Assembly: GCA_023717605.1 (NCBI GenBank)
Contig: JAMQPH010000730.1
Location: 1-33,336 of the forward strand
DNA length: 33,336 bases
Source: Pyrinomonadaceae bacterium
GTDB taxonomy: Bacteria; Acidobacteriota; Blastocatellia; Pyrinomonadales; Pyrinomonadaceae
Direction of reading: 5' to 3'
Shown: piece by piece, positions 3,143 to 27,906 of the stretch
Layout of the letters: each line of letters starts with the position of its first letter
How positions within the stretch are numbered: position 1 is the stretch's first letter
Notes under the pieces: model-generated
Databases searched by the model: none
Told to the model about the DNA's origin: nothing
Seen by the model: the letters and a program-made list of their open reading frames with translations, nothing else
Program-made: the position numbers and the translations under genes

Positions 3143-6100
3143 CTAAGGTACTGCCTCGACGAAGACGAAGACGCGGAAGCTCCCGCTTTGTTGCACTCCG
3201 AAGAGGAAATTCAGGTGGATTGACGCGCCGGCAGCCAGCGGTGTCCCCAGCGTCACCGTCCCGGCCGCCAGACTTGAGTTAAGACCGCCGCTGTTGGGTT
3301 GCGCCGGCGGCGCCTCCAACGTGGTTGCCAACGCCGTCAACATGGTGCCGCCGGTTACCGTGACGACCACGTTACTTGACGTGCGCGCCCGCAGGTCGGC
3401 CGTACCCACTGGTGACGGGAACGTCGTGATGTCGTAGATGCGGAACCGCAAGCGGGTGATCGCGCCGGCGGTGTTGTTGATGAACGTTCGCCGACTGGCG
3501 AGGGTCCCTAAAGTCGAATTGTTCGCCGGGTCCGGCGTAGTGTCGCGTGCTCGGTTCGGTGCTGCCGACTGCGGAACCAATGGGTCGATCAGTTGCGACC
3601 CGACCTGCGAGAACTTCTTCAGGTTCGGGCCAGCCAGATTCTCCGGACCGGGCGCACCCAACCTGGGAGCGGCAGTCCCTCCGACCGGCGTCAATGGCGT
3701 GGTCGAGATCACCGTGAAGTCAGCCGCGTTGTCGTTGCCATCGGTCGGCGTTGGAACATCGTTACTGACCAGGGTGAACTCGCGCACGAAACTGTACTCC
3801 GAAGTGCTGCCTGAGGCCGGCGCCAAGGTCGTGCCCTCCAGCAACAAGGCGCAAACGCCGCTCGTGTTAGCTCCAAACCCGACGGCGTCGAGTCTGTTAG
3901 CCGAGGAGACCTGGAGTGGATCGACCGTCATGAAGAGTCCGACGTTGAAGTCGCCCTCGATGTCGGTCGTCAGCGTAGCGTTGCCGGCTGCGGCTCCAGT
4001 GCCGCCGTAGTTGGCTAAGCTGTAGGTGCTGCCCACGAACAGGTAATGACCGCGCTGTGGAATCACAGTCGTGGCCGGAATGGTTCCGATGAGCACCGGT
4101 ACCGCGTTGCAGTCCGCGCCCATCTTGAAGAGACCATAACCACCGGCCGGAACCGTGTGTGGTGTGTCGGTGTTGTTGTAGATCTCCACGAAGTCATCAC
4201 CCGCGCCGGCTGGGCCGCTGGTGCGCATCTCGGAAATCAGAATAGTACCCGGCTGATTTAGAGTGATGGTGCCGGTGCCCGTGCCGTCGACAATCACCGC
4301 TCCCGGTGCACTGTTGACGTTCAGGGTGAAGGTTTCGTCCCCTTCGGCAGTTGCATCTGAACAGACCGTAACCGGGAAGGTCTTGATCTGCTCGCCGGCA
4401 GCGAAGGTGGTGGTGCCACCAGTAACCGACTCGTAGTCTGCACCTCCCGCGCAAGTACCGCCGGTGGCCGTTCCGTTAGCCGTGCTTAGGTTGACGACAA
4501 TGCCGCCAGTCGGCGCCGGTGTTGACAGTGCCAGGGTGAAGATCATCGGCGTAGAGCCTGCAGCAGGTTCGGCCACGCTCGCATCTCTGACGAAGAGATC
4601 GGGCGGAACCGTGACCAGAGTTACAGTCGGATCATTCATGCCGCCTACAGATGGATCATCAGTCAGAACCGAGATGCCGCCGTCGGCTGTGACCGTGCCC
4701 TGGTTAGAAACCTGAGGCATGGCTCCCATGAATGGATCGTCAACAACCACCTGGAAGGTGATCGTGACTGATTGGCCCGCCGGCAAGGTGCCGACATTCC
4801 AGGTCAGATTGTCACCCACGATGACAGGTGGAGTCGGCAGGCCATCGCCCGCCGGTGGAGCGACCGGTCTCGGTTTCGGCCTGTAGCGCACGCCAGGATC
4901 CACTACGACGGTGTTAACGGCCGGTGATTGGACCACTGGTTTCTTTGCGACCGCCACGGCTTGCGTTCGCGGCGAAGAAATAAATGGACGGCTGGTGATG
5001 CTGTCCGTGCTCGAAGGAGCGGTGGTTTGTACCGCCGGGGCGGGGCTGACCAGGTCATCGCCGGATCCAGGTTTCTCTTCGCTGCCCTTCTCAGGAGCGG
5101 TGGGGATGGTCGGCTGTGTGCACGGCGAATTAGCGGGGCTGGAGTTCAAGAAGCCGCCGCCGCCGGTTGCGACGGTGTTGCTTGACACCACAGAAGTGAC
5201 GGTGTTTCGGCCGGAGAGGTAGGTTGCCACAGCCGCGTTGTCGTTGTTGGCGCCGGTGTAGCCCGGCAACCTCACGGTCGTTAACTGGCGCTGACGCGGT
5301 CGAATGTCAGCGCCGCCCGCTGCCTCGTTGCCGGAGTTCGGAGCGTTGTTCCTCAGCGCAGGCGTGCTGCCGCCAATGTCCACGCAGGCGACGCTCGTGT
5401 TGCCCACGTCAATGCCCCAGTTGAGCTGGATGCCGTGGAGCGATAGACCCGCCGCGCCGGGACTGCCCGGCTCGTCGATCGTGTTGCCCGTGATGGTGGC
5501 GTTAAACGTCGTCGTGCCAGCTTCCGCGCCCTCGATGTTAATGCCAATGTCGCGGTACTGGCGGATGGTGTTGTTCGTGACGAGCGTAGTGTGTGAGCCG
5601 CCGCCGCGCGACTCAACGCTGATGCCGTTGGACTCCGAGGCGCCCGAAAGGGTCACGCCGGCGAGGCCAATAGTGTTGCCTGAGATCCTGCCGCTAAACG
5701 TTCCGGTTCCGCTGCCCTTGTTGACCATGATGGCATGCCCTTGCCTCGATCCGTTGACCGTGTTGGTCGATACGTCGTAGGTGAACGTGCCGCCGAAGCT
5801 CGCGCCCAGGACACGAAAGTTCTGCCCGAGTCCGATGGGGTGAACGGGCGAGCCCGGACTGCCGGCGTTGCCAGTGAAGACCAGGCTGGCCGTGGGCGAT
5901 CCGAAGAGCGAAAGATCGAAGTGGTCGCCGCCGTGGGCAGAGAATGTATTGTTCGTAACGTGGAGTGTCCCCACCGCTGCTGGCGCCGCGGGATCGCCGA
6001 GCTCGATGAAAAGGCCGTCATCGCCCGCAGCATTGCCGGTGTTATGGATGTTGCAGCTGCTGACAGTCAGATCGAGGGTGCCCGTAGTGTTGTCAATGCC

Positions 6101-9100
6101 GATGTTTTTCGCGAAACCGCCGCTAACCTCGGAGGTGGTGATTAAACACGTGCCGGTGAGCTCGAGGAAACTGATACTGCTTTCAGTGAAGGGGCCGTTC
6201 TGGTTCGTGCCGTTTGTGGCCACCAGACTGTTTGAGAGCGTGAAAGCGCTGACGAGTGTGCCGCGAATACCGTAGTTCGGATGGGTATCGATCCGCATTG
6301 AGGTGAGCACCACCGTGGCCGCGTTGTCGAGCGAGACTCCCGTTCCAGCTGGGGCTGCCCCGCTGTTATCGGCGCCCGCTGTATTAGTAATGCGCCCACC
6401 GGTGCAGGTTGGGGTCGCGGCGTTGCAGGTACCGCCTGTACCCAGAACGCGGAAGCCACCAGGGGCGCCTGTAACCGAGGTGTTGACAAGCCGGATGCCG
6501 TTGGCGGCAGCCCCGCCGCCAGTGGTGTTGACGGTTGTCCATTGAGTGTTGAGGGGTGTGCGACTGGCACTGCTGGTACCGACGATCTCGATGGCGGTGT
6601 TGTTCGTGGTAGTGATCGTCCCGCTGGTGGTGGTGATTGCTCCGGTATTCTGGATTGCGTGCAGAGCTCGCTGGCCTGAATCGGGTGTGATGTCAAGGTC
6701 GGTGAAGGTAAGCGCGCCGGTGTTGCCGTTAGCGGCAGTGCCGAGCACGACGCCCGTGCCGCCGGAGGCGTTGACAACTGTGTCGCCGAAGTTCAGCGTC
6801 CCTGCGCCCGAATTCAGCACCTGGATACCGATGCCCGTTGGGTTCTGAATGTCTGTATCCGTGCCGGCGCCGGTGACCGTGAGATTGCCGCTAACGAAGT
6901 TCAGGACGACGCCAAGAGTCGTGCTGTTGGTCGAAACTATGTCGTCGAGAGTCATCGATAGTGGCGTTCTCGCGGCAGCGCTAGCGCCTGTGATCTCCAT
7001 GTTGACGGCGTTGGTGGCATTGATAGCACCGTTGGTTGAGCTGATGGTTCCGGTGTTGTTCTGCGCGAGCAATCCCCGCTGGCCGCTGTCGGGGGTGACT
7101 TGCAGCGTGACGAAGGTGATGGCGCCAGCATTACCGGCGAGGAGGACGCCCGTGCCGCCTGCCTGATTGTTGGTGGTATTGCCGAAGTTCATCGTCCCGC
7201 CTACGGACGTGTTTTGGACCTGAATTCCAGCGCCAGTCGGGTTTGTTATGGAGGTCGACGCGGTTGTCATATTGCCGCTGACGCGGTCGATGTTTATGCC
7301 CTGCGCGGCGCTGTTGGTCGACGAGGCAGCGGTAAAGTTCAGAGTGATGGGCGACGCCGGGGCGGCCGCCTTGGTGATGTTGATTGCCGGACCACCTGTG
7401 GCTGCGATGCTGCCCGCGCTGGTCGTGACGTTGGTTTGGCCGGTGTTACCGGCGCCCACGAGCCCCGCTCCGTTTGAAGTAGTAATGGCAAGGCTGTTGA
7501 AGGTCACGTTTCCGACGTTGGCGGTTGCCGCACTTCCTAGGTTAACGCCTATTCCGGCGTTTCCTTTGTTGACGGTTGTCGCAGCAAAAGTCACGGTCGT
7601 GCCGGTCGCCAGGCTCTGAATATCGATTCCGGTGCCAACTGGCGCTGTCTGCGCCGCCGCGGGGATCAAGGTCGCACCTGTGACGTTTACGTTGCCGCCA
7701 CCGACCGCGTGTAGGAAGCCAATGCCACTATTGTTTGAGACCGAGAGCGAACCGAACGTCCGGGTACCGCTGGCGTTGTTCTGCAGGGAAACACCGTCGG
7801 TGCCGCCCGAAACAGAAGTGTTGCCGAAATTGATGTCAGCGGTTGTCGTTCCGACGAGGATGCCCTGCGTGGTCGAGCCGGCAATGTTTGTGCTGCCGAA
7901 AGAAACGGTGCCGGCAACACCCGAAAAACTAATACCCTGCGTGCCGCTCGATGCCGTCGCCACGCTTAAGAAGGCTGAGGTGGCGGCGAAGGTGCCGGTT
8001 GTCAGGTTAAGCGCCTGGCCCGTGCCGTTGAGCACGAGGTCGGGCGACGCATTGTTGCCCGCAGTGAGCGTGCCGAAGCTGCTGCCCAGGATTTTCGCGC
8101 CCGTAGTGTTGCCGATCGTGAAGCCGCGCAGAATGATGCCACCCGCGTTGACGGTCAGCGCGTTTGTTGCCGCGATCGCGGTCGTGATCGTGACGTTGGC
8201 CGGATTGCCGTTGGTCACGGGCAGCGGATCGCTGTAGGGCTGCACTGCGCCGACGCCCGCGATGTTCGCCAAAGTGTCGGTCGCGCCCTGGCCAATGAGC
8301 TTTTGGTTGGCGAGGAAGGTCAACCCACCGGTATATGCACCGTTGAGGAGAAAGATGTTGTCGCCCGCCTCGTCCGCGGTCGAGGCGCTGAAGCAGCCTG
8401 CGCCTACGAGGCAGTTGAATGGGTTTGTCAGACGCCCGTCGCCACCCGCCACCGGGTCGTCGTCGTTGACGAAAAAGATCATGCCCGCGACCGTCAGCGT
8501 GACAGTCCGTGTGTCGACTCCGTTGGCGCTCGTCGCCGTGTAGGTGAAGGTGTCCGAGCCCGTGAAGCCCACCGGCGGGTCGTAGCTGAAGCTGCCGTCG
8601 GAGTTGATAGCGACGTTGCCGCCCTGCGTCGATGTTGTTCCGCCGCTGGCCGTTAGCCCCGTGTTGTTTCCGGTGTTGGGATTGATGTCGTTGGCGAGCA
8701 GCCCCTGGGCGGCATTGGGTTGAATGCGAACGTTACCGATGACGTTGTAAGCATCGTTGAAGGCTATGGGAGTGGCAACTGCGGAGCCGGGAACGAGCGT
8801 GGTGTTCGGATCAACAGTGTCGTTGAGCGTTAGATTCAAGGCCGGATCCGGTCCGGTGTTGGTAAGAGTCACCGTGTAGGTGATGTTCTGGCCCGGGCTT
8901 ACTTTTCCGTCGCCATCAACATCGGGAAAAGAATCCACTTTCGTCGCGCTGATGATCGGCGCGAGCCCTGTGGCGGTCACACGGAGTGGCACCGGCACCG
9001 GAGCGAAAGAACTGGCTATGCCCTCTTGCGGTGACGCCTCGCCCTTCTCGACCTCAACGTTAGCTGATTTAGCTGAAGCCCTACGATTCGCGGAACCATT

Positions 9101-9208
9101 GAAGGCCATCGCCATTGGCGCTAGCTGGCTTGTCAGCAACACGTATGCGAGCAGAGTGGCGACAAACGTTCTGCCATTGCGATTGGAGGACGGGATCTGC
9201 TGGGTCAT
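3143..9208 (-). CDS. Giant secreted beta-helix / Calx-beta / lamin-tail domain surface protein
   Basis: A 2021-residue predicted exported protein. Residues 1-35 form a Sec signal ending in PMAMA. A DVDGDGKV calcium-loop-like motif (96-103) leads into a DUF11/Ig-like segment (about 105-145). A cadherin/VCBS-like Ig domain follows (about 147-242). Residues about 285-1330 are Gly/Thr/Asn-rich, beta-helix-like repeats. After a Pro-rich linker (about 1360-1460) come another DUF11-like stretch, a Calx-beta domain (about 1536-1645, EGDETFTLNV) and a lamin-tail domain (about 1655-1800, ISEMRTSG and DDFVEIYNNT). No autotransporter barrel, LPXTG or obvious sorting tag is seen at the C-terminus (FRVFVFVEAVP), so the anchoring route is unknown. 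The start is supported by AAGGAG four bases upstream. The gene lies downstream of three tail-collar genes on the same strand, suggesting a joint role at the cell surface. Adhesion is inferred, not shown. Confidence 0.85.
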   Translation of the reverse strand: MTQQIPSSNRNGRTFVATLLAYVLLTSQLAPMAMAFNGSANRRASAKSANVEVEKGEASPQEGIASSFAPVPVPLRVTATGLAPIISATKVDSFPDVDGDGKVSPGQNITYTVTLTNTGPDPALNLTLNDTVDPNTTLVPGSAVATPIAFNDAYNVIGNVRIQPNAAQGLLANDINPNTGNNTGLTASGGTTSTQGGNVAINSDGSFSYDPPVGFTGSDTFTYTATSANGVDTRTVTLTVAGMIFFVNDDDPVAGGDGRLTNPFNCLVGAGCFSASTADEAGDNIFLLNGAYTGGLTFLANQKLIGQGATDTLANIAGVGAVQPYSDPLPVTNGNPANVTITTAIAATNALTVNAGGIILRGFTIGNTTGAKILGSSFGTLTAGNNASPDLVLNGTGQALNLTTGTFAATSAFLSVATASSGTQGISFSGVAGTVSFGSTNIAGSTTQGILVGTTTADINFGNTSVSGGTDGVSLQNNASGTRTFGSLSVSNNSGIGFLHAVGGGNVNVTGATLIPAAAQTAPVGTGIDIQSLATGTTVTFAATTVNKGNAGIGVNLGSAATANVGNVTFNSLAITTSNGAGLVGAGNTGQTNVTTSAGSIAATGGPAINITKAAAPASPITLNFTAASSTNSAAQGINIDRVSGNMTTASTSITNPTGAGIQVQNTSVGGTMNFGNTTNNQAGGTGVLLAGNAGAITFVTLQVTPDSGQRGLLAQNNTGTISSTNGAINATNAVNMEITGASAAARTPLSMTLDDIVSTNSTTLGVVLNFVSGNLTVTGAGTDTDIQNPTGIGIQVLNSGAGTLNFGDTVVNASGGTGVVLGTAANGNTGALTFTDLDITPDSGQRALHAIQNTGAITTTSGTITTTNNTAIEIVGTSSASRTPLNTQWTTVNTTGGGAAANGIRLVNTSVTGAPGGFRVLGTGGTCNAATPTCTGGRITNTAGADNSGAAPAGTGVSLDNAATVVLTSMRIDTHPNYGIRGTLVSAFTLSNSLVATNGTNQNGPFTESSISFLELTGTCLITTSEVSGGFAKNIGIDNTTGTLDLTVSSCNIHNTGNAAGDDGLFIELGDPAAPAAVGTLHVTNNTFSAHGGDHFDLSLFGSPTASLVFTGNAGSPGSPVHPIGLGQNFRVLGASFGGTFTYDVSTNTVNGSRQGHAIMVNKGSGTGTFSGRISGNTIGLAGVTLSGASESNGISVESRGGGSHTTLVTNNTIRQYRDIGINIEGAEAGTTTFNATITGNTIDEPGSPGAAGLSLHGIQLNWGIDVGNTSVACVDIGGSTPALRNNAPNSGNEAAGGADIRPRQRQLTTVRLPGYTGANNDNAAVATYLSGRNTVTSVVSSNTVATGGGGFLNSSPANSPCTQPTIPTAPEKGSEEKPGSGDDLVSPAPAVQTTAPSSTDSITSRPFISSPRTQAVAVAKKPVVQSPAVNTVVVDPGVRYRPKPRPVAPPAGDGLPTPPVIVGDNLTWNVGTLPAGQSVTITFQVVVDDPFMGAMPQVSNQGTVTADGGISVLTDDPSVGGMNDPTVTLVTVPPDLFVRDASVAEPAAGSTPMIFTLALSTPAPTGGIVVNLSTANGTATGGTCAGGADYESVTGGTTTFAAGEQIKTFPVTVCSDATAEGDETFTLNVNSAPGAVIVDGTGTGTITLNQPGTILISEMRTSGPAGAGDDFVEIYNNTDTPHTVPAGGYGLFKMGADCNAVPVLIGTIPATTVIPQRGHYLFVGSTYSLANYGGTGAAAGNATLTTDIEGDFNVGLFMTVDPLQVSSANRLDAVGFGANTSGVCALLLEGTTLAPASGSTSEYSFVREFTLVSNDVPTPTDGNDNAADFTVISTTPLTPVGGTAAPRLGAPGPENLAGPNLKKFSQVGSQLIDPLVPQSAAPNRARDTTPDPANNSTLGTLASRRTFINNTAGAITRLRFRIYDITTFPSPVGTADLRARTSSNVVVTVTGGTMLTALATTLEAPPAQPNSGGLNSSLAAGTVTLGTPLAAGASIHLNFLFGVQQSGSFRVFVFVEAVP
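6539..7342 (-). repeat. Internal repeats in the giant protein gene, about 408-bp period
   Basis: The encoded protein repeats a block of about 136 residues. Landmarks are TPDSGQR, followed by NTG.I, a second block ending RTPL, then NPTG.GIQV.N and NFG, and GGTGV. Two copies are complete or nearly so, and a third is partial on the N-terminal side, starting at LNFTAASSTN. The copies have diverged, so duplication is not recent. Confidence 0.75.
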
Positions 9209-9382
9209 AAGGCTCCTTAAAATATTTCTATGTGTGGAAGGTAATTATTAATGTGCGTAGCTTGGGACAGGTTGTCGTTGGCAACCAGAACAGTGAGAGA
9301 ACCACTCAATCGGTCCGTAAAGCTCGAACCAACAAGCTGACCGGCTATGGACTTTCCTCACGCGACTCTTCTATCGCCTTGA

Positions 9383-9407
9383 CACACGCAGTCGGTACCT
9401 GCGTGTG
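9383..9407. terminator. Hairpin between tail-collar gene 3 and the giant gene
   Basis: A perfect 9-bp stem, CACACGCAG/CTGCGTGTG, with a 7-base loop, in the 207-bp gap between the third tail-collar gene and the giant gene. No T-tract follows on the minus strand. It could be a weak terminator, an attenuator or an RNA-processing site that uncouples the two genes. Confidence 0.45.
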
Positions 9408-9415
9408 GCAGCAAC

Positions 9416-9940
9416 CTACGGTCGCTGCGGAAAGATGCCCTGAAGGGCGATGCAAAAATTCAAAGTCAGGTACGGCTGCAGGTTGTTGTGCGGAAGGCTC
9501 CCGCCTGCGGGCGCGAGTGCCTGCGGAGCCATTTGCACTAGCCCCGAAAAAGTAGTCGAGTAAGCGTTGCCGCCCGACGAACGCGCCAGCGTGGCGTTGG
9601 GGGTTGGGATCTGCGCGTCGGCGGGGTCAACCGAAGCCATCATATTGTGTGTGTGCAGCGGAATTTCGGATTCGAGCAGAGTGACAAACTCAGTCCCGCT
9701 CATTTCGCCGAGGTCGCGCAGCGAAAGTCCCTGTCCCTGGCCTGGCTGCATGGGTGCGTTTCCCTCAAGATTAGGCAGCGCGAAAGTGGACTTGCCGTCG
9801 CCACCGTAAACCGTCCCGAGCAGCGAGAAGAGGGCCGTATTCTGCGAGATAGGCATCAACTGCCCGTTGCATTGGGCCCAGCCCGTCGGCGCGAAGTTAA
9901 ATCCGAAGATGCGAATTTCTGCGACAAATGGGTCAGACAT
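9416..9940 (-). CDS. Phage tail-collar domain protein, copy 3 (MdpB-like)
   Basis: A 174-residue member of the tail-collar (Phage_Collar, PF07484) family, also called microcystin-dependent protein-like in bacteria. The N-terminal collar module is plain: FVAEIRIFGFNFAPTGWAQC, NGQLMPISQNTALFSLLGT, YGGDGKSTFALPNL. An HTH sequence at about residue 96 (IPLHTHNMM) gives an HxH motif, which in T4 short and long tail fibres binds a metal ion in the trimer. The protein ends with PHNNLQPYLTLNF and GIFPQRP, the conserved C-terminal strands. There is no signal peptide, so export would need another route. AAGGAG lies six bases before the ATG. It is the last of three tandem paralogues, 12 bases after copy 2. 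Its target and whether it forms trimers here are inferred. Confidence 0.9.
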   Translation of the reverse strand: MSDPFVAEIRIFGFNFAPTGWAQCNGQLMPISQNTALFSLLGTVYGGDGKSTFALPNLEGNAPMQPGQGQGLSLRDLGEMSGTEFVTLLESEIPLHTHNMMASVDPADAQIPTPNATLARSSGGNAYSTTFSGLVQMAPQALAPAGGSLPHNNLQPYLTLNFCIALQGIFPQRP

Positions 9941-9952
9941 GGGCTTCTCCTT

Positions 9953-10471
9953 CTAGGTTTGGGTGGGAAACACGCCGAATAGCGAGATGATGAAATTGAT
10001 ACAAAGAAACGGCTGGCAGTTCTCGTGTGGCTGGCTGCCTCCAACGGGAGTGACGGCATTGGCGTTCAACGCACCCGTAGGTGCGTCGTTGATAAGCACC
10101 TTGACACTGGCCGATTCACCGATCACGTTGCCTCCAGGGGCGTTAGAATTGCCGGGGCCCGTCGAGGCCAGCAGCGGATGGGAGTGGATCGGAATCTGCT
10201 GGACCGTGAGTGTCACCTGTTCGGTGCCCGCAGACTCGCCTAACTGATATGTCGTGCCGTCAGGGCCGGTGCCCGTGTGTATTGGTACGCGGCTAGCGAG
10301 GTTCGGCAAATTGAACGTCTCCTGACCGTCGCCGCCGTAGGTCGTGCCGATCAGCGTGAAGAGCGCATCGTTCTCCGAAATGGGGAGAGTCTGGCCCTCG
10401 CAAAACATCCAGCCGTTCGGGGGGAAGTTACCCGCGAACATCCTGATTTCTCCGATATATGGTTCTGGCAT
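9953..10471 (-). CDS. Phage tail-collar domain protein, copy 2 (MdpB-like)
   Basis: A 172-residue paralogue of its two neighbours. The same order is seen: YIGEIRMFAGNFPPNGWMFC, EGQTLPISENDALFTLIGT, YGGDGQETFNLPNL, then IPIHSHPLL (the HxH motif) and PHENCQPFLCINF...GVFPTQT. It differs from copies 1 and 3 in having CEGQ rather than CNGQ and a distinct middle section (about residues 100-145), the part that in tail fibres tends to vary with the ligand. A strong AAAGGAGAG sits about nine bases before the ATG. It is 13 bases after copy 1 and 12 before copy 3, so the three form one transcript. Divergence of the three copies argues for an old duplication with separate roles, possibly subunits of one fibre. 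Confidence 0.9.
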   Translation of the reverse strand: MPEPYIGEIRMFAGNFPPNGWMFCEGQTLPISENDALFTLIGTTYGGDGQETFNLPNLASRVPIHTGTGPDGTTYQLGESAGTEQVTLTVQQIPIHSHPLLASTGPGNSNAPGGNVIGESASVKVLINDAPTGALNANAVTPVGGSQPHENCQPFLCINFIISLFGVFPTQT

Positions 10472-10484
10472 GTGCGTCTCTCCT

Positions 10485-10982
10485 TTAGTTCCGCGATGGG
10501 AAGATGCCCTGAAGTGCGATGATGAAGTTCAGAACGAGGTACGGCATCATGTTGTTGTGCGGCTGACTGCCACCGACGTTCGACACGGTTGGGGGTGACA
10601 GCGTGGTCGGGCTGTCAGGTGTGCGATAGACGTTTGCCGCCGAGGCAAGCACACTTCCGACTGCCAGCGGCGTCGTACCCACGCTCGGTGATGCCTGCGC
10701 GAAGTGGATGTGCAGCGGCATGGTCGACTGGTTGAGTGTGACGCTGGTGCTACCGGCCTGCTCGCCCTGTAAGTGGCCCTGGCCCACGTGGATAGGAACT
10801 TGTCCTCGCAGATTAGGCAATGCAAAGTTTGTTTGTCCGTTGCCGCCGTACATCGTGCCAAGCAGCGAGAAGAGTGCCTGATTCTGGTTAATAGGCAACA
10901 ATTGACCATTGCACAGCGCCCAGCCCTTCGGCGCGAAGTTGAAGCTAACGATTTTGATTTCTGCCAAGAACGGTGTGGACAT
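10485..10982 (-). CDS. Phage tail-collar domain protein, copy 1 (MdpB-like)
   Basis: A 165-residue first gene of the tail-collar triplet. The collar module reads FLAEIKIVSFNFAPKGWALC, NGQLLPINQNQALFSLLGT, YGGNGQTNFALPNLRG. An HxH motif occurs in MPLHIHFAQ, and the C-terminus is PHNNMMPYLVLNF...GIFPSRN. AAGGAG precedes the ATG by about six bases. Upstream, on the same strand, are a 288-bp gap with a candidate sigma70-type promoter and then a methyltransferase gene. It is closer to copy 3 than to copy 2 in the collar module (CNGQL, FALPNL, ALQGIFP). No baseplate, tube, sheath or lysis gene is near, so this is not a prophage tail module. A fibre-like or cell-surface function is the reasonable inference. 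Confidence 0.9.
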   Translation of the reverse strand: MSTPFLAEIKIVSFNFAPKGWALCNGQLLPINQNQALFSLLGTMYGGNGQTNFALPNLRGQVPIHVGQGHLQGEQAGSTSVTLNQSTMPLHIHFAQASPSVGTTPLAVGSVLASAANVYRTPDSPTTLSPPTVSNVGGSQPHNNMMPYLVLNFIIALQGIFPSRN

Positions 10983-11200
10983 AGCGCGACTCCTTGGTAA
11001 AGAATTCGAGCAGTTCTTTCAATCAGCTGGCAAGGGGTCTCAACGTGCTGGTAAGCCGTATGAGACAGAACTTGGGCATGTTGGAGGTTTCAAACGCCAG
11101 TGTGCGCCTGTAAGCGTTGGGGCAGTAATTCCCTCTAGTCTGGTTGAGGCGATCGTAATCGAAATCTTAGTGAGCGTATTTCCGGAAACTAAGCGCGCAG

Positions 11201-11229
11201 ATTGTAAACCGGAAGGTAAGGAATTACAA
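11201..11229 (-). promoter_or_regulatory. Candidate sigma70-type promoter for the tail-collar operon
   Basis: On the minus strand TTGTAA (11224-11229) is separated by exactly 17 bases from TACAAT (11201-11206). These match 4/6 and 5/6 of the consensus boxes. Transcription would start near 11194, giving a leader of about 210 bases before tail-collar copy 1. A perfect 10-bp palindrome, TTTCCGGAAA (11179-11188), sits just downstream of the predicted start and could be an operator. Pattern match only. Confidence 0.4.
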
Positions 11230-11270
11230 GAAGTTAGGTAGAAGCAATGTTTGAATGTGGCTCATCGCAA

Positions 11271-11768
11271 CTAGGTATTGCCCGCAATCCAAAGATGCAA
11301 CGTGCGTGGGTTGCCACCTTCATCCGTAAATCTTTCCGTTGTGATCGGGGTCCAGTCGCCCATGCCAAAATTATGTGAGATTATCCGCGTTCCCGCTCTT
11401 GCGGTTTTCGCAATTAACGGCCGCAGCTTCTCAGTCGACCAGTGCACCAGGTAAACCATCACCACAGTCGCATCGGAAAGGTCCACTGTCATTGCGTCCT
11501 GGTGTTTGAATGTCACCAGTTGCTCAACCCCAGCTGCTTGCGCGTTTGACTGAGACTCCGTAACACGATAGGGCTCTATATCGAACCCGATGCCCCGGGC
11601 GCCATACTTCTTGGCGGCGGCGATAATAACGCGGCCATCACCACAGCCGAGGTCATAAACAATATCCTGGCTCGTTACCGCTCCAAGCTGAAGCATGCGC
11701 TCCACCACATCCGCAGGTGTGGGGACAAAGGGGGCGAGTATGTACATAGGCGTTCCACTGTAGTTCAT
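11271..11768 (-). CDS. Class I SAM-dependent methyltransferase
   Basis: A 165-residue soluble Rossmann-fold methyltransferase. Motif I is YDLGCGDGR (about residues 38-46), which binds S-adenosylmethionine. The acidic end of strand beta-2 is GIGFDIEP, and HQDAMTVDLSDA gives the adenine-side motif. The lead sequence APFVPTPADVVERML is typical of a family of small methyltransferases of unknown substrate. It resembles the core domain only, without a target-recognition extension, so protein or small-molecule substrates are both possible. The start at 11768 has AAAAGG five bases upstream. It sits upstream of the tail-collar operon on the same strand, but a 288-bp gap with its own candidate promoter suggests separate transcription. 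A link to modification of the surface proteins is speculative. Confidence 0.85.
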   Translation of the reverse strand: MNYSGTPMYILAPFVPTPADVVERMLQLGAVTSQDIVYDLGCGDGRVIIAAAKKYGARGIGFDIEPYRVTESQSNAQAAGVEQLVTFKHQDAMTVDLSDATVVMVYLVHWSTEKLRPLIAKTARAGTRIISHNFGMGDWTPITTERFTDEGGNPRTLHLWIAGNT

Positions 11769-11888
11769 TTCAACCTTTTCGTCCGTTTCTGAACTGATTC
11801 AAGTTGTTATCCAGGTTTATGTGAACGACCGGTAGATTCCTCGTCAACGGGCGTCGCTCCAGTTGGCCCAACCCATCCAAGCCTCAGA

Positions 11889-11917
11889 TTGACCGACTCT
11901 GAGTCCAAGTTGGTCAA
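11889..11917. promoter_or_regulatory. Nested palindrome in a divergent intergenic region
   Basis: GACTC-T-GAGTC (11895-11905) lies inside a wider inverted pair TTGACC.../TTGGTCAA (11889-11917). It sits in the 367-bp region between the methyltransferase (minus) and the Tat protein (plus), where both genes must have promoters. It could be an operator for either gene. Apart from this I see no gene in 11769-12135. Confidence 0.35.
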
Positions 11918-12135
11918 TAAGACAAGGGCTCGTCAATCATGCGGAACACGAAGCGCTTTAGCAGTTTCCATGATCATGGAGCCACTGCGCTCAACAGAGA
12001 TTGGATACCAATCTGAACTCTTACCGGATTTGATTTTAGGTTGTCAGTTCCCAGGTAAGCACTTTACACTGTGGTCCAAGGCAGACGGCCTGCCACCCAC
12101 CTCAGAACAATTAGGATTAAGGAGAAATAGCCCAG

Positions 12136-12615
12136 ATGTCCGTATCAAGACGAAAGTTTATAAAATCCGGGACGCTTACTGCTCTGTCAGCGAGCCTGGT
12201 CTTTAAAGCGGCCGAATCCGCCTTCGGACAGAAGAGCAAGCCAGACCGTCCCATTTCCAAATTTGAGGTCCCCTACGAAGCGCGGCAGAATCCGATCATA
12301 TACTACGACCGCGTTACCTTTGAGCCTTACGTTGGCGGCACGTTTATTGGCCGCGACGCGCGCGGCCGGACGATCGAGCTGAGGCTCCTCAGGGTCACCG
12401 AGTACAAACCCAATCCAAGTACGAGGATTACCACCGGCGGAACTCGAGATACTGATTCGTTCAGCTTAACCTTCAATGCTTCAAGATCGCTGCCCCCATT
12501 TACCAGCATCCATGCGATTGAACATCCTGTGCTCGGAAAGTTTGACCTGTTCCTGCAGCGCTCCGACGACAGCGGTCAAATAATCTACCAGGCGGTCATC
12601 AACCACCTTCGCTAG
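12136..12615 (+). CDS. Tat-exported DUF6916-like protein
   Basis: A 159-residue protein with a clear twin-arginine signal at its N-terminus: SRRKFIKSG (residues 4-12), a short hydrophobic stretch and an AFGQ cleavage region near residue 31. After a spacer comes a small beta-rich domain (about 58-159): VTFEPYVGGTF, RTIELRLLRVTEY, FSLTFNASRSLPP, IEHPVLGKFDLFLQ, IIYQAVINHLR. The same pattern is found in the protein at 13437-13745. From memory the domain resembles DUF6916, whose function is unknown; I could not check this. Tat export implies folding before transport, often with a cofactor, though no cofactor motif is visible. AAGGAG lies 11 bases upstream. The gene lies near the tail-collar operon on the opposite strand, and I recall DUF6916 genes beside tail-collar genes elsewhere. 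Confidence 0.75.
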   Translation: MSVSRRKFIKSGTLTALSASLVFKAAESAFGQKSKPDRPISKFEVPYEARQNPIIYYDRVTFEPYVGGTFIGRDARGRTIELRLLRVTEYKPNPSTRITTGGTRDTDSFSLTFNASRSLPPFTSIHAIEHPVLGKFDLFLQRSDDSGQIIYQAVINHLR

Positions 12616-12622
12616 CTGCCGA

Positions 12623-12838
12623 ATTATTAGCCGCGGATGAACGCGGATACACGCGGATCAGAAAAAGGACAGGATAGGCGACGTGGAGACACGGAGACGG
12701 CGAACACGGAGACACGGAGAAAAACACCTCGAAGCTTGGTACTGCTTTCTTGGCCCCTGCTTCTGGCTCCTGCTCCTGCCTCCTCGTGTCCTGCCTTACT
12801 CTGATCAGTGTCATCCGCGTTTATCCGCGGCTGATTTA
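12623..12838. repeat. Composite intergenic repeat, family B (CCGCGGAT ends)
   Basis: The left end has three spaced GCGGAT units (CCGCGGATGAACGCGGATA...). The right end has the inverted form (ATCCGCGTTTATCCGCGG at about 12813-12830). The same pair of ends flanks 20749-20868. Between them is filler with GGAGACACGGAG repeats (12683-12720) and a pyrimidine-rich run (12755-12800). No gene is seen in this gap. Confidence 0.75.
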
Positions 12839-12846
12839 TTCCGTTG

Positions 12847-13377
12847 ATGAAGAGTATGTCGAGGGAGAACGCTGAGGCTCCGATTCCGTTGCCGGGAGGA
12901 GGTAACGTTGTTCTCCGTCCCGTCACGGCTGAAGATGACGGATTTCTGCTCTCGGTTTACGCCGGTAGCCGAGAGGAAGAACTAGCCCAAGTGCAATGGG
13001 CTGAGGGTCAGAAGGAAGCTTTCGTTCGCTGGCAGTTTGAAATGCAGCGCCGCGAATACGATGCACGCTTCCCGGATGCGCGCTACGACGTGATTGTCGT
13101 CGACGGTCAGCCGGCGGGAAGAATCTGGGTTGGCAGCGACGATGAACAACTTCACCTGCTGGACATCGCGCTGCTCAAAGAGTTTCAGAATCGCGGAGTG
13201 GGCACGCAACTTTTTCGAAGGTTGATCGATGAAGCCGCTAAGGCCAACAAGCATCTCCGACACATGGTCTTCGCACTCAATGAAGACGCCTTGCGTTTCT
13301 ACGAGCGTCTGGGCTTCGTGATTATCGAAGACCTGGGGGCGTATAAGCACATGGAATGGCGGAGGAAGGAGCAGTAG
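12847..13377 (+). CDS. GNAT family N-acetyltransferase
   Basis: A protein of about 176 residues that should transfer an acetyl group from acetyl-CoA to an amine on an unidentified substrate. The GNAT core is clear: the N-terminal strand VVLRPVTAEDDGFLLSVYAG, the V/A motif ...LHLLDIALLKEFQNRGVGTQLF (acetyl-CoA pyrophosphate loop Q-N-R-G-V-G), and the C-terminal NEDALRFYERLGFVIIED. A TTG at 12844 is followed directly by ATG at 12847, and another ATG lies at 12856; no good Shine-Dalgarno helps to choose, so the start is uncertain by a few residues. From memory, this subtype (EELA.V.W....K..F...QF, then YPDAR.DV) is often next to tail-collar triplets, which fits the neighbours here. It lies between two DUF6916-like genes. 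Confidence 0.88.
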   Translation: MKSMSRENAEAPIPLPGGGNVVLRPVTAEDDGFLLSVYAGSREEELAQVQWAEGQKEAFVRWQFEMQRREYDARFPDARYDVIVVDGQPAGRIWVGSDDEQLHLLDIALLKEFQNRGVGTQLFRRLIDEAAKANKHLRHMVFALNEDALRFYERLGFVIIEDLGAYKHMEWRRKEQ

Positions 13378-13390
13378 CAGCAGCGGGACA

Positions 13391-13418
13391 TTTTTCATTT
13401 CTCATTTTTCATTTCTCA
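13391..13418. repeat. Two exact tandem 14-bp units
   Basis: TTTTTCATTTCTCA occurs twice back to back between the convergent GNAT and DUF6916-like genes. A related purine-rich tract in reverse orientation is at about 15985-16018 (GAGAAATGGAAATTGAGAGA). Probably a remnant of a dispersed low-complexity repeat. Confidence 0.6.
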
Positions 13419-13436
13419 GTTTCTGTAGTCTGCGGA

Positions 13437-13745
13437 CTACTTGAAGTAATTGAAGACTGCTTCGTAAACGAAGCCCTGTTCGTCTCGCGCGATAGTAACC
13501 AGGAAGATGTCAAGCGCGCCAAGTTGCTCGTGCTCCAGCTGGTAAGTACGCTGCGGAAGATGCAGGTCGCCGGGGCCGCTGAAGAAAAAAGAGAAACGCT
13601 CCATCCCACTCTGCTCGTTCGAGCCGTTCCCATAGCCTTTGACTTCAACCAGTTTCAGCTCAACCGGCCGAGGTTCGTTGACCTTAACCCGAAACACTGT
13701 GTTCAAGTGTTTAGCAAAATTGACTTCCGTCAGTCGTTCGTCCAT
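13437..13745 (-). CDS. DUF6916-like small protein, cytoplasmic form
   Basis: A 102-residue protein starting MDERLTEVNFAKH. The longer frame reaches back to 13880, but the stretch before 13745 is low-information and overlaps the upstream gene. GGAGGGAG at 13755-13762 sits nine bases before this ATG, which decides the start. It aligns with the mature part of the Tat protein at 12136-12615: VNFAKHLNTVF, VELKLVEVKGY, FSFFFSGPGDLHLP, LEHEQLGALDIFL, VYEAVFNYFK. It has no signal peptide, so the two homologues would sit in different compartments. It follows the phosphoribosyltransferase gene by 22 bases and is probably co-transcribed with it. Function is unknown; the DUF6916 name is from memory. Confidence 0.78.
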   Translation of the reverse strand: MDERLTEVNFAKHLNTVFRVKVNEPRPVELKLVEVKGYGNGSNEQSGMERFSFFFSGPGDLHLPQRTYQLEHEQLGALDIFLVTIARDEQGFVYEAVFNYFK

Positions 13746-21784: not shown

Positions 21785-21978
21785 GAATTGCGCCGGCTTT
21801 GGCGGATGAAGCATGCATTTAGTCAAATTTGCAGCTTAGGAAGTCAAAATTCGCAGGTTACGAAGGACCTGCGAGCCTCTCCCGCTCGAGAGATTGCCTT
21901 TCCGAGAGACAACACTGTTGCCCGCGACATATTGAGGCGCGTACACTTGCGGCACGTAGTCTCAGGGACATCTCGAAA

Positions 21979-23850
21979 ATGAACCCACGACTCGCAGCTA
22001 TCGCCGGAAAACTAAAAGGCGACGTTTTCCCGATCACCGATGCCCCGGTCTTGATTGGTCGGGAAACCGCTGCCAGCCTCTGCATCGCAGATCCGTCCGT
22101 GTCGCGACGCCATTCTCAGATCGAGAAAGAGGATGGGCAGTTTGTAATAATCGACCTTGACAGCCTCAACGGCACGTTTGTCAACGACGTGCCCGTGAAG
22201 CGACGTCCGCTTGCGCATGGAGATCGCGTTCGCATCGGCGACTCGCAGTTCCTCTTTCTGCTGCATGACGGGGAAGCGTCACCGCCATCGAAATCGAGTG
22301 CGGTCCGGTTTGAGGATCGTCAATTCAGCGGTTCAACAATCCAGGTCAAATACAACGACGCGGTTTACTTGATGGCCCGGGATCTGAGTGCGTTGATGAA
22401 GGCCAGCACCACTGTCAACGCCATCCGTGGTCTCGAAGAGTTGCAGAAGACCTTGATCGAACTCCTCTTCGAAGTCGTTCCTGCGGAGCGCGGAGCCATT
22501 CTGCTCAGTTATGCAAACGGGTTAGAGGATGCAGCTGTGTTTGGTCTGGATCGTGCCCGCGGGCCCGATGAAGCAATTAGGGTTAGCCGCAAGATCGCTC
22601 AACAGGTACTGCGGGAGAAGACCTCTCTTCTCATGAGCGATTCTCCAGCGAAGGGATTTGGCTCCGAGAGTCTCAACCAATCCCGGCCCAGTTCGCTCAT
22701 GTGCGTGCCGATTATCATGCTCGATCGACCGCTGGGCGTCATCTACCTCGATACGAATGCGCCGGACGTTCATTTCGACAAGGATCACTTGCAACTGGTC
22801 TCGGCCATTGCCGCCATTACGGCAGTGGCCATTGAAAATGCGCGCCACTTCGAATGGCTTCAGAGTGAAAACGAGCGACTACTCGCCGACGTCAATATTG
22901 AGCACAACATGGTGGGCGAGAGTCCCTCTATGAAACAGGTTTACCAGTTTATCTCGAAAGTTGCGCCAACCGATGCTACGGTGTTGATCTCCGGTGAAAG
23001 CGGAACTGGAAAAGAACTGGCGGCGCGAGCCATTCATCAAAACAGTAAGCGGGCGAAACTGCCGTTCATGGCTGTAAACTGTGCGGCGCTGGCAGAGACT
23101 CTGCTTGAAAGCGAACTCTTTGGGCACGAGAAGGGTGCATTCACCGGCGCCACGGCCACGAAGAAGGGTCGTTTGGAAGTTGCGGACGGCGGCACGGTGT
23201 TTCTCGATGAGATTGGCGAACTCTCACCTGCGCTCCAGGTGAAGCTCCTGCGGGTGCTGCAGGAACGCGAATTCGAACGCGTCGGCGGCACCCGGACGAT
23301 CAAGGTTGATATCCGACTCCTGGCGGCCACAAACAAGGATCTGGAACAAGCCATTGCCGAAGGAACTTTTCGTCAGGACCTCTTCTACCGTCTAAATGTA
23401 GTTGAACTGACAATGCCGCAGCTCAGAGAAAGGCCGGAGGATATTTCGCTTTTGGCAAACTACTTCGCCTCGAAGCACGGAGAAAAATGTAACCGCAGGA
23501 TCTTGGGGGTCTCTCCCGAAGCACAAGCCCGGTTACTCAATTACGAATGGCCCGGGAATGTTCGTGAGCTGGAAAACGCAATTGAGCGAGCGGTAGTGCT
23601 GGGCGTAACTGACCATATCCTCCCGGAAGACCTGCCCGAAGCCATTTTGGAAAGCGAAGCTGCGGCAACCGCCATCCCAGCGCCCAGGTACCATGAAGCC
23701 GTTACCCAGACAAAGAAAAAGATCATCTTGAGTGCTATGGATCAGGCAAAAGGCAGCTACACCGAAGCTGCCAAACTTCTGGGTGTTCATCCCAACTATC
23801 TTCATCGACTGATCCGGAACTTGAACTTGCGCGAACAGGTGAAGCAGTAA
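21979..23850 (+). CDS. FHA-GAF-AAA+-Fis sigma54-dependent transcriptional activator
   Basis: A 623-residue regulator. The N-terminal FHA domain (about 18-95) binds phosphothreonine peptides: GRE with Arg28, SVSRRH ending His45, and NGT at 64-66. A GAF-like sensor region follows (about 125-290: [28 protein letters not shown]). The sigma54-interaction AAA+ module has Walker A GESGTGKE (339-346), the GAFTGA loop (386-391) that touches sigma54, and Walker [12 protein letters not shown] (404-414). A Fis-type HTH ends the protein ([18 protein letters not shown]). An upstream in-frame extension to 21829 lacks family similarity; ATG 21979, with AGGGA 11 bases upstream, starts just before the FHA domain. 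FHA in place of a receiver domain points to control by Ser/Thr kinases. Likely targets are not visible; the acyl-CoA dehydrogenase downstream is a candidate. Confidence 0.93.
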
Positions 23851-25545: not shown

Positions 25546-27906
25546 ATGAAGACCGATACGAAAGTTTTGAAGCTCGTGAAAAAAACGGAGTCAGCTTCCG
25601 AGGCTGAGTCCGCGTCGGCTGAGGCCAAGGCTGCAACAGCGGATTTTGAGGGAGCGGCGCTCGCCAAGGAGCCCCCGCCCGCGCCGAAAGTTGTGGCGAA
25701 CGAAGGAACAAAATCTCCAGTAGTGACAAAGATGGTGCCCCAATCCAAAGCTCCGCGAACCCAGGCAGCGACACAACCTGCGCGTCTGGTTCCGGCAGCA
25801 AAAGGTCAAAGCAATTACCATGGACTTAGTCGCGAACAGATGGTCGCGATCTATCGCACGATGTATCTGTCACGCAAAATTGACGACAAAGAGATTCAGC
25901 TCAAGAGCCAGAACAAGGTCTTTTTCCAGATTAGCGGGGCGGGACACGAAGCCGTCCAGGTAGCCGCGGGAATGCTCCTCAAACCCGGTTATGATTGGTT
26001 CTATCCCTACTACCGGGATCGCGCTCTTTGTTTGCAGCTCGGGATGACTCCTCTGGAACAACTGCTTGCAGCTGTCGGCGCCGAGGCAGATCCAAACTCA
26101 CATGGTCGCCAGATGCCATCACACTGGGGCCATAAAAAGCTCAACATCGTCTCGCAGTCATCGCCTACGGGCACTCAATTGTTACAAGCGGTCGGCGCCG
26201 CGGAAGCCGGTTATCGCGTGAAGCTGATCAAGGAACTAAAGAACCGTGTCCAGAACTTTCATGCGGACGAAGTGGCGTACGTGTCACTCGGCGACGGCAC
26301 GACAAGCGAAGGCGAGTGCTGGGAAGCTCTGAACACCGCTTGCAATCTGAAACTGCCGGTTCTGTTTTTGCTGGAAGACAACGGTTACGCAATCAGTGTC
26401 CCGGTTGAAGTCCAAACGCCGGGTGGTGACTTTTCCAAGCTCCTGGAAAACTTCCCCAATCTCCATATCGAGAGATGCGACGGGACTGAAGTACTTGAGT
26501 CGTATGCTGCTTTGCAACGTGCCGTGCAGTACTGCCGCCAAGGCAAGGGACCGGCGCTGGTCCATGCAAAAGTAATCCGTCCCTATTCTCACTCACTTTC
26601 CGATGACGAACGGTTATATCGCCCCGACGAAGAACGCACGGCTGATTCCGAGCGCGATCCGGTCAAACGTTTTGGCGCGTTCCTGATAGAAGATGGCGTT
26701 ATCAGCCAGGATGAGTTACAGCGGATCAAAGATGCAGTAGATCGGGAGGTGAATGAAGCTGCGGACCAGGCTTTGGCGAGTCCGCAACCCGCTCCCGAAA
26801 CGGTGAAGCTTTACGTCTATTCACCCGATGTCGATCCTTGCGGCAGGGAGTTTGACACAGAAGAAGGCGCCGAGCTCTCCGGAAACCCTGGGACTATGGT
26901 TGACCTCATCAACCGCTGCCTGCATACGGAGATGGCGCGAGATCCTCGGATCGTCGTCTTTGGCGAAGACGTTGCCGACTGTTCGCGTGACACTTATCTC
27001 GAAAAGGTCAAAGGGAAGGGCGGGGTCTTCAAGGTAACGGCTAACCTGCAGAAAAAGTTTGGCAGCGCGCGAGTGTTCAATTCTCCTCTCGCCGAGGCCA
27101 ACATCGTCGGACGTGCTATTGGCATGGCTACCCGTGGACTGAAACCGGTGGTGGAGATCCAATTCTTTGATTACATCTGGCCGGCCATGCACCAGATTCG
27201 CAATGAACTGGCGCTGTTACGTTGGCGCTCGGGCAACGAATGGAAAGCGCCTCTGGTGATTCGTGTGCCTATCGGTGGGTATCTTAAAGGCGGGGCAGTT
27301 TATCACTCGCAGTCCGGGGTCTCTACCTTTACTCAGATTCCAGGTTTGCGTGTGGTCTATCCTTCAAATGCGTTGGACGCTAATGGTCTCCTGCGTACCG
27401 CGATTCGCTCGGACGATCCCGTTCTGTTTCTCGAGCACAAACATCTTTACCGGCAGGCGTACAACAAATCGCAATACCCGCCCGACGATTTCATGATTCC
27501 TTTCGGCAAAGCGAAAACGGTGCGTGAGGGAAACGATATGTCGATCATCACCTATGGGGCCCTTGTGCAACGCTCCGTGGTGGCGTCTAAGCAGGCCGAG
27601 CAGCAGGGAATCAGCGTGGAAGTCATTGATCTCCGTTCACTCTCTCCCTACGACTGGAATGCGATTGTGGCTTCCGTGAAGAAGACGAATAAGGTAATTG
27701 TTGCTCACGAAGACTCGCTATCTTTCGGCTACGGCGCTGAGATCGCCGCGCGGATTTCCAGCGAGCTTTTTGAATATCTCGATGCCCCCGTACGGCGCGT
27801 CGCTGCACTCGATACCTTCGTCGCTTACGCACCTCAGCTTGAAGATGTAATCCTCCCACAAGCGACTGACGTAGCGAAGGCAATTGACGAACTACATAAC
27901 TACTGA
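25546..27906 (+). CDS. Fused alpha/beta thiamine-dependent 2-oxoacid dehydrogenase E1 (2-oxoisovalerate type)
   Basis: A 786-residue protein joining the E1 alpha and beta subunits. Residues 1-88 are Ala/Pro/Lys-rich and disordered-looking. Residues about 95-430 are alpha: [19 protein letters not shown], then the thiamine pyrophosphate motif with [15 protein letters not shown] (GDG at 249-251) and DNGYAIS (Asp278-Asn279). Residues about 470-786 are beta: [56 protein letters not shown]. In many bacteria alpha and beta are separate genes. Branched-chain 2-oxoacids are the best guess because the acyl-CoA dehydrogenase is close by; pyruvate is not excluded. No lipoyl-carrying E2 or E3 gene is in the window, so those must come from elsewhere. 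The Shine-Dalgarno is weak (GTGAAGT). Confidence 0.92.

Follow-up and report, generated by a model that had tools for sequence, protein, structure and literature searches.

Three classes of tail-collar protein are kept together with a cassette-specific acetyltransferase in bacteria of many phyla

We have analyzed a stretch of 33,336 nucleotides (the window in what follows) of a Pyrinomonadaceae bacterium of the Acidobacteriota (contig JAMQPH010000730.1 of assembly GCA_023717605.1) that carries a gene cassette built around three small proteins with the collar domain of phage tail fibres (PF07484). The three collars belong to distinct classes, A, B and C, and one member of each class is retained, along with a GNAT acetyltransferase whose subfamily is specific to the cassette, usually with DUF6916 proteins and often with a giant secreted protein. 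The cassette was seen in ten bacterial phyla, where the usual labels are 'phage tail' or 'tail fiber' protein. The explanation that we favour, to which we give roughly an even chance of being right, is a host-owned and probably heterotrimeric head resembling the tip of a tail fibre, accompanied by a giant surface protein and matured by the dedicated acetyltransferase. The members of the cassette in the window are the following (aa, amino acids; Tat, twin-arginine translocation).

10485..10982, minus strand: collar protein A (class A), 165 aa; PF07484 E 1.4e-27; HxH histidines H91/H93 and PHxN histidine H142; falls in the class A clade
9953..10471, minus strand: collar protein B (class B), 172 aa; PF07484 E 2.8e-28; falls in the class B clade
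9416..9940, minus strand: collar protein C (class C), 174 aa; PF07484 E 2.6e-26; falls in the class C clade
3143..9208, minus strand: secreted giant with repeats, 2021 aa; gene downstream of the collars; domains DUF11, Big_9 and Calx-beta
5123..5416, minus strand: conserved module of ~97 aa within the giant, common to giants beside collars in other phyla
12844..13377, plus strand: GNAT acetyltransferase of the cassette-specific subfamily, 177 aa; PF00583 E 4.2e-15
12136..12615, plus strand (opposite to the collars): DUF6916 protein with an N-terminal Tat-type signal (SRRKFIK), 159 aa; PF21880 E 8.5e-12
13437..13745, minus strand: short DUF6916 protein with no visible signal, 102 aa from the ATG at 13745; PF21880 E 3.2e-27

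A sequence-only reading of this DNA had proposed three tandem collar paralogues, each with an HxH motif, bordered by a GNAT enzyme and two homologous DUF6916-like genes. The coordinates and gene calls of the collars hold, with PF07484 matches of E 3e-26 to 3e-28, and the matches to PF00583 and PF21880 confirm the bordering genes. The gaps between the three collar genes are of only 12 and 13 nt, and their PF07484 scores (92-98 bits against a cut-off of 24) are the sole matches to this family in a search of the whole genome. The two DUF6916 proteins scored 45 and 95 bits against a cut-off of 27, and the cassette GNAT gave 251 bits in this genome against 44 for the next match.

Two sets of loci were compared. 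The first consisted of the window and 40 fetched relative loci (41 in all), mapped with profiles seeded from the window proteins. The second was made of the best 80 of at least 576 stretches, one genome per species, ranked by their likeness to collar A; with 5 duplicates dropped it held 75 loci of 8 phyla by record title, and 71 of its arrays were triplets. Plasmid records added Deinococcota and Bacillota, in which the annotations place a GNAT and a large repeat protein in the neighbourhood of three tail-fibre genes (DUF6916 not being part of this comparison). The commonest set was one or two GNAT genes, a short DUF6916, a second DUF6916 with a Tat-type start that is encoded against the direction of the collars, the three collars and a giant. 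The profiles of GNAT, DUF6916 and collars were trained on cassette members, a caveat that applies to the mapping of the loci, to the counts around the triplets and to the test on 99 genomes described below.

The classes were well separated in the tree of the relatives, where three clades of 26 rows each had supports of 98, 98 and 99 and all 26 triplets placed one row in each clade. The gene order was swapped in six of them with the one-per-clade rule kept. A wider tree of 303 collars contained 97 tips in clade A, 99 in B and 83 in C (supports 95, 83 and 99, respectively), and no locus appeared twice in any clade. Of 100 non-redundant arrays, 83 had A, B and C and 14 more had A and B with a third collar outside clade C, that is, 97 triplets were made of one class A, one class B and one third gene. 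The order among the triplets was ABC in 71 and BAC in 9, with three other orders found once each, and the set did not change with it. Three arrays (L056, L062 and L064) were off the pattern. The collars of L062 (genome G041) group together with a support of 88 and have GNAT, DUF6916 and a large neighbour at their side, which suggests a separate, independent triplication beside the same partners. Because three distinct classes are kept, one of each, a head made of three chains (A, B and C) is plausible; the retention of one of each through changes of order and across phyla is a prediction of such a complex, and falls short of proof.

The association with the partner genes was examined in 70 triplets (22 from the window and its relatives and 48 others) that had at least 4 kb on both sides. 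Within 4 kb there was a GNAT in 62, a DUF6916 in 62 and both in 60. Matches inside 4 kb numbered 94 for GNAT and 107 for DUF6916, versus 1 and 0, respectively, beyond 6 kb (713 and 485 kb). At the level of whole genomes, PF07484 was found in 28 out of 59 (the window's included; three matches in 19, six in 4, four in 3 and one in 2) and DUF6916 in 29. Both occurred in 26, only the collar in 2, only DUF6916 in 3 and neither in 28 (Fisher test, 3e-11). Among the three with DUF6916 only, the matches of G007 and G051 were at contig ends, and the third was G006. Fourteen named control genomes gave PF07484 in four and DUF6916 in one of those four.

A collar-independent test was carried out with 99 genomes drawn evenly over the phylum (thresholds E <= 1e-30 for GNAT and E <= 1e-15 for the collar). 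The cassette-type GNAT and the collar were present in the same 11 genomes and neither was in the other 88 (Fisher test, 8e-15). The two genes shared a contig in all 11, separated by ~14 kb in G037 and within ~5 kb in the others. In two of these genomes a single collar lies ~110 bp from a single GNAT, and the 16-kb loci gave no match to DUF6916, so that the pair of collar and GNAT is the smallest form seen. Searched across genomes, the neighbourhood of collar, GNAT, DUF6916 and giant stood far above the controls, which is not what chance would give, and the recurrence of collar triplets with GNAT and DUF6916 in other bacteria, which the sequence-only reading had brought up, is borne out over many phyla.

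The giant varies greatly from locus to locus. For 21 of 24 triplets in the window and relatives, a gene for 800 aa or more in the same direction followed downstream within 3.5 kb, compared with 17 of 92 control genes (5 of the 29 triplets were dropped for want of room). The ~97-aa module was found in 11 of the 59 genomes, 10 of these 11 with collars, and a PDB sequence search with it returned nothing up to E 1. The 2021-residue protein of the window had been described as a secreted beta-helix protein; its size, strand and signal-like N-terminus (judged by eye) stand. The beta-helix models of Pfam gave no match to it at E values up to 1, so the term rests on its repeats and on one relative (L131) that matches PF13229. 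The lamin-tail match was weak in the window giant (E 0.053), and in L053 it reached E 7.7e-5, still below the curated cut-off. Among nine giants scanned with Pfam, three had a recognised surface or secretion domain, namely an autotransporter domain in Ruegeria sp. TM1040, SLH domains in Paenibacillus and a sorting tail of the type IX secretion system (T9SS) in Dyadobacter. Two further giants (L131 and L109) have RTX repeats, and in the one of the window and three others the repeats are immunoglobulin-like (Ig-like), PKD or similar, with no anchor seen. An IPTL-CTERM-like stretch closes the Delftia giant.

The collars themselves are short. In the window proteins (165-174 aa) the collar domain begins at residue 7-8, with no fibre shaft in front, and the collar profile matched a phage long tail fibre (8kec, E 1.7e-9) and T4 gp12 (1ocy, E 3e-4; 1pdi, E 5e-4). 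The histidines of HxH and of the later PHxN were at least 95% conserved in each of the three classes. The blocks directly after HxH were the least conserved, with a top-residue share of 0.30-0.50 (gaps scored as differences) against mostly 0.64-0.94 elsewhere, and class B had two further blocks of low conservation (0.39 and 0.54). These conserved histidines and variable blocks fit a tip tied by metal with variable binding loops. A binding role is also in line with the positive selection reported for collar paralogues of Solibacter (excerpt of PMC3174227) and with the detection of COG4675 in soil metaproteomes (excerpt of PMC5579227), reports that do not identify the cassette.

The N-terminus of the collars is also characteristic, M-[AS]-x-P-[FY]. 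Alanine or serine was at position 2 in 267 of 309 collars, with starts assigned by rule (7 of 316 were unassigned and 26 of the 309 lay implausibly near the domain), and in 26 of 130 background open reading frames (ORFs), taken with longest-ORF starts from the relatives only. Methionine aminopeptidase and N-terminal acetyltransferases commonly act on N-termini of this kind. Since the collars start in this way and the best NCBIfam match of the GNAT is RimI, the collar N-termini are the substrate that we would propose for the enzyme.

The short DUF6916 gene repeatedly adjoins GNAT in other loci, and no signal was seen in its product, in the GNAT or in the collars. Of the 35 first-set loci with the family, 26 have one DUF6916 copy whose start is, by motif, of Tat type. 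A structural model of DUF6916 was mainly beta, with a predicted local distance difference test score (pLDDT) of 81. Genes of ~400 aa that resemble binding proteins were found near the collars in L086, L122, L125, L135 and L157, some with a Tat-type motif start, and the two members scanned (L135 and L157) contained Peripla_BP_6. The triplets of L122, L125 and L135 have this kind of gene and no DUF6916.

Putting these data together, the cassette would encode a surface-binding device of the host assembled from the tip parts of phage tail fibres. A, B and C would form one knitted heterotrimeric head in which the nine histidines of HxH and PHxN bind metal ions. The hypervariable loops between HxH and PHxN would bind the ligand, probably a glycan. 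The head might be displayed on the giant, or work with it, the giant holding it at the surface. The GNAT would acetylate the processed Ala/Ser N-terminus of the shaftless collars and the signal-less DUF6916 could act as a cytosolic factor for folding or assembly. Where the Tat-type DUF6916 is present, it may take over the collars or escort them across the inner membrane; such an escort is possible in some lineages and not general. The more ambitious version of this explanation, an undescribed and very widespread surface machine with an obligate, metal-locked heterotrimeric A:B:C head that stems from phage tail-fibre tips and is acetylated N-terminally by the GNAT, with chaperones of the DUF6916 family (a cytosolic one plus, in some lineages, another exported by Tat) and with a lineage-specific giant as anchor, we regard as doubtful.

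Several data weigh against the favoured explanation of a surface-displayed three-chain head. Regarding the head, AlphaFold2 of collar A alone gave a pLDDT of 46, which is uninterpretable; the support of clade B was only 83 in the wide tree, with many weak inner branches; and single-collar cassettes exist (L036, L037, L063, L161 and L162), so three chains are not always needed. The loci L056 and L064 carry divergent collar triplets outside A, B and C with no GNAT or DUF6916, and are possibly a different system. Regarding the partners, GNAT was missing within 4 kb in 8 of the 70 triplets, DUF6916 in 8 and at least one of them in 10, and G006 (L066) has a GNAT-DUF6916-GNAT arrangement and no collar in the genome. 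The RimI match of the GNAT is below the cut-off (41.3 versus 86.4 bits). DUF6916 had no sequence relative in the PDB, a fold search of PDB and viral models found nothing at E <= 0.001, and the Tat-type start was present in only 12 of 58 second-set loci with DUF6916. Regarding the surface, the collars have no signal peptides, 6 of the 9 scanned giants (the window's included) have no anchor domain, the giants differ greatly in domain content, and the ~97-aa module is confined to 35 of 121 loci (34 after removing duplicates), with several copies off the collar contig.

In two of the single-collar loci, which come from two genomes, a long open frame (L162:4964-6868 and L161:4935-7031) is followed by the single collar and GNAT, and the frame of L162 begins with collagen-like GxT/GxP repeats, resembling a split-up tail fibre.

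The same lack of a signal or anchor in the collars, together with the great variation of the giants, speaks for the alternative that survives best, a possible one that we rate clearly below the favoured explanation: a lectin-like collar complex, soluble and either secreted or cytosolic, with no physical tie to the giant, which would be just a frequent separate neighbour. Genome G044 is in agreement with it, having a split cassette with collars and giant on one contig and GNAT-DUF6916-GNAT on another (L041 and L069), and so are seven loci of rhizobial and roseobacter type (L101, L103, L112, L133, L137, L146 and L155) in which a repeat protein of ~430 aa without visible signal comes directly after the collars. 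The latter protein has W-S-x-W-like repeats, propeller-like by eye, and the two members scanned matched no Pfam family over the cut-off. Against a collar complex with no tie to the giant stand the excess of giants downstream of the triplets over the control genes and the conserved module common to giants of several phyla.

An intracellular system, for example in stress or defence, in which GNAT and DUF6916 would regulate or modify a collar complex unrelated to the surface, is unlikely. The absence of signals in GNAT, short DUF6916 and collars agrees with it, and GNATs occur in toxin-antitoxin pairs, where the usual partner is a ribbon-helix-helix antitoxin. No Pfam match to such a partner was obtained among the proteins scanned, small ORFs and padloc being outside this search. 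Against an intracellular system, the giants and one DUF6916 copy have N-termini of export type, and a collar protein (triplet membership not established) was detected in the exoproteome of Ruegeria pomeroyi, according to the portion of PMC4949626 available. The words 'collar' and 'tail' are absent from the main text of another Ruegeria exoproteome paper (PMC2953401).

A Pfam scan (E <= 1e-6) of ten other window proteins gave Lon, a sigma-54 regulator, a nucleotidase, a permease, a mannosyltransferase-like protein and dehydrogenases, among others, with one protein left without a family; no phage structural gene (capsid, tail, lysis) was among them, the 786-aa protein at 25546-27906 and the small ORFs being unscanned. 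This, with the recurrence of the same partners, upholds the initial view that the region is neither a prophage nor a contractile injection system. A decayed prophage or tailocin remnant, with leftover tail-fibre tips as collars and chance cargo as neighbours, is highly improbable: the collar fold is common to phage tail fibres (collar A was matched by 412 of 50,697 phage records, all at <60% identity) and a collar triplet of Caulobacter K31 has been read in print as a phage region (in the available section of PMC4221894), but the match in the one phage record opened was the C-terminal part of a 567-aa tail protein, the short DUF6916 of the window had 0 matches in the 50,697 records (tblastn), and the three classes are intact across phyla with the same partner genes recurring.

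Two other genes of the window have to be mentioned.

11271..11768, minus strand: methyltransferase, upstream of the collars and outside the recurring set
21829-23850: sigma-54 regulator with FHA and GAF domains (Pfam scan)

The methyltransferase had been taken for an accessory modifying enzyme, and this had to be abandoned, since within the 41 first-set loci, the only ones searched, its profile matched just the window itself (0 of the 40 fetched relatives). It resembles archaeal protein-lysine methyltransferases (NF041081, E 2e-34, below the cut-off). The rest of the proposal, a host-owned surface machine with accessory enzymes in which the collars would form or cap a fibre, is supported in part, by the recurrence of a host-owned cassette and by the surface or secretion domains of three giants. 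An adjacent phosphoribosyltransferase, found in 3 of the 41 loci, was treated as local synteny and rejected as a member. The sigma-54 regulator family was present in 8 of the 41, in several directly adjoining the cassette, and may be local synteny or a regulator. A scan for promoters and terminators gave 3 and 5 sites in the window versus 2.6 and 5.4 in shuffles, and was not used.

The comparison with known systems begins with T4 gp12 and the long tail fibre 8kec, where the likeness is one of collar homology. The gp12 protein is a trimeric metal-binding head with HxH in which one chain is used three times, with a shaft in front. The cassette differs from it: the three chains are short, unlike one another and shaftless, a specific acetyltransferase goes with them, and no phage genes were seen nearby. 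It would work most like the phage-fibre adhesins owned by bacteria, such as the mosaic adhesive trimer (MAT) proteins of Bdellovibrio, which are phage-fibre-like surface-recognition proteins of the bacterium, as the consulted part of the article has it (PMC10769870). Each of these is a long trimeric fibre made from a single gene, and the tips vary; the main text does not contain the word 'collar', and the sections available mention no GNAT, DUF6916 or rule of three paralogues (PMC10769870). We considered the cassette as a MAT member and rejected it: the collars are of 165-174 aa, with the domain from residue 7-8, no shaft and fixed enzyme partners.

A host-encoded protein that does have the collar domain is RhiB of the rhiABC operon of Rhizobium leguminosarum, possibly involved in plant interaction (excerpts of PMC13133039 and PMC6969944). 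The likeness is by description only; the operon has a single collar gene and lies between quorum-sensing genes, and those excerpts name neither a triplet nor GNAT nor DUF6916. The text seen of PMC2275737 places RhiA in the cytoplasm, which gives no support for the export of RhiB. A further comparison is with a group of adjacent locus tags in Acaryochloris marina (AM1_3684-AM1_3690), with three collar genes and a putative acetyltransferase that appear together in a list of genes with greater levels under low far-red light than under high white light (part of PMC11633204). They are not treated there as a system, as far as that part goes, and the identities of AM1_3684 and AM1_3687 are putative. 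No description of the cassette was found in the literature, preprints outside PubMed Central and most subscription papers not being covered, and DUF6916 was not named in the literature found for the cassette terms.

If true, two things would be new to our knowledge: an acetyltransferase dedicated to a fibre-tip protein, and a tip in which three chains are not interchangeable. Many genes that now carry the annotation 'microcystin-dependent protein', 'phage tail collar' or 'tail fiber protein' may be parts of a single host system and not of phages. The cassette defines the parts, so that the subunit make-up, the location and the substrate of the acetyltransferase become directly testable.

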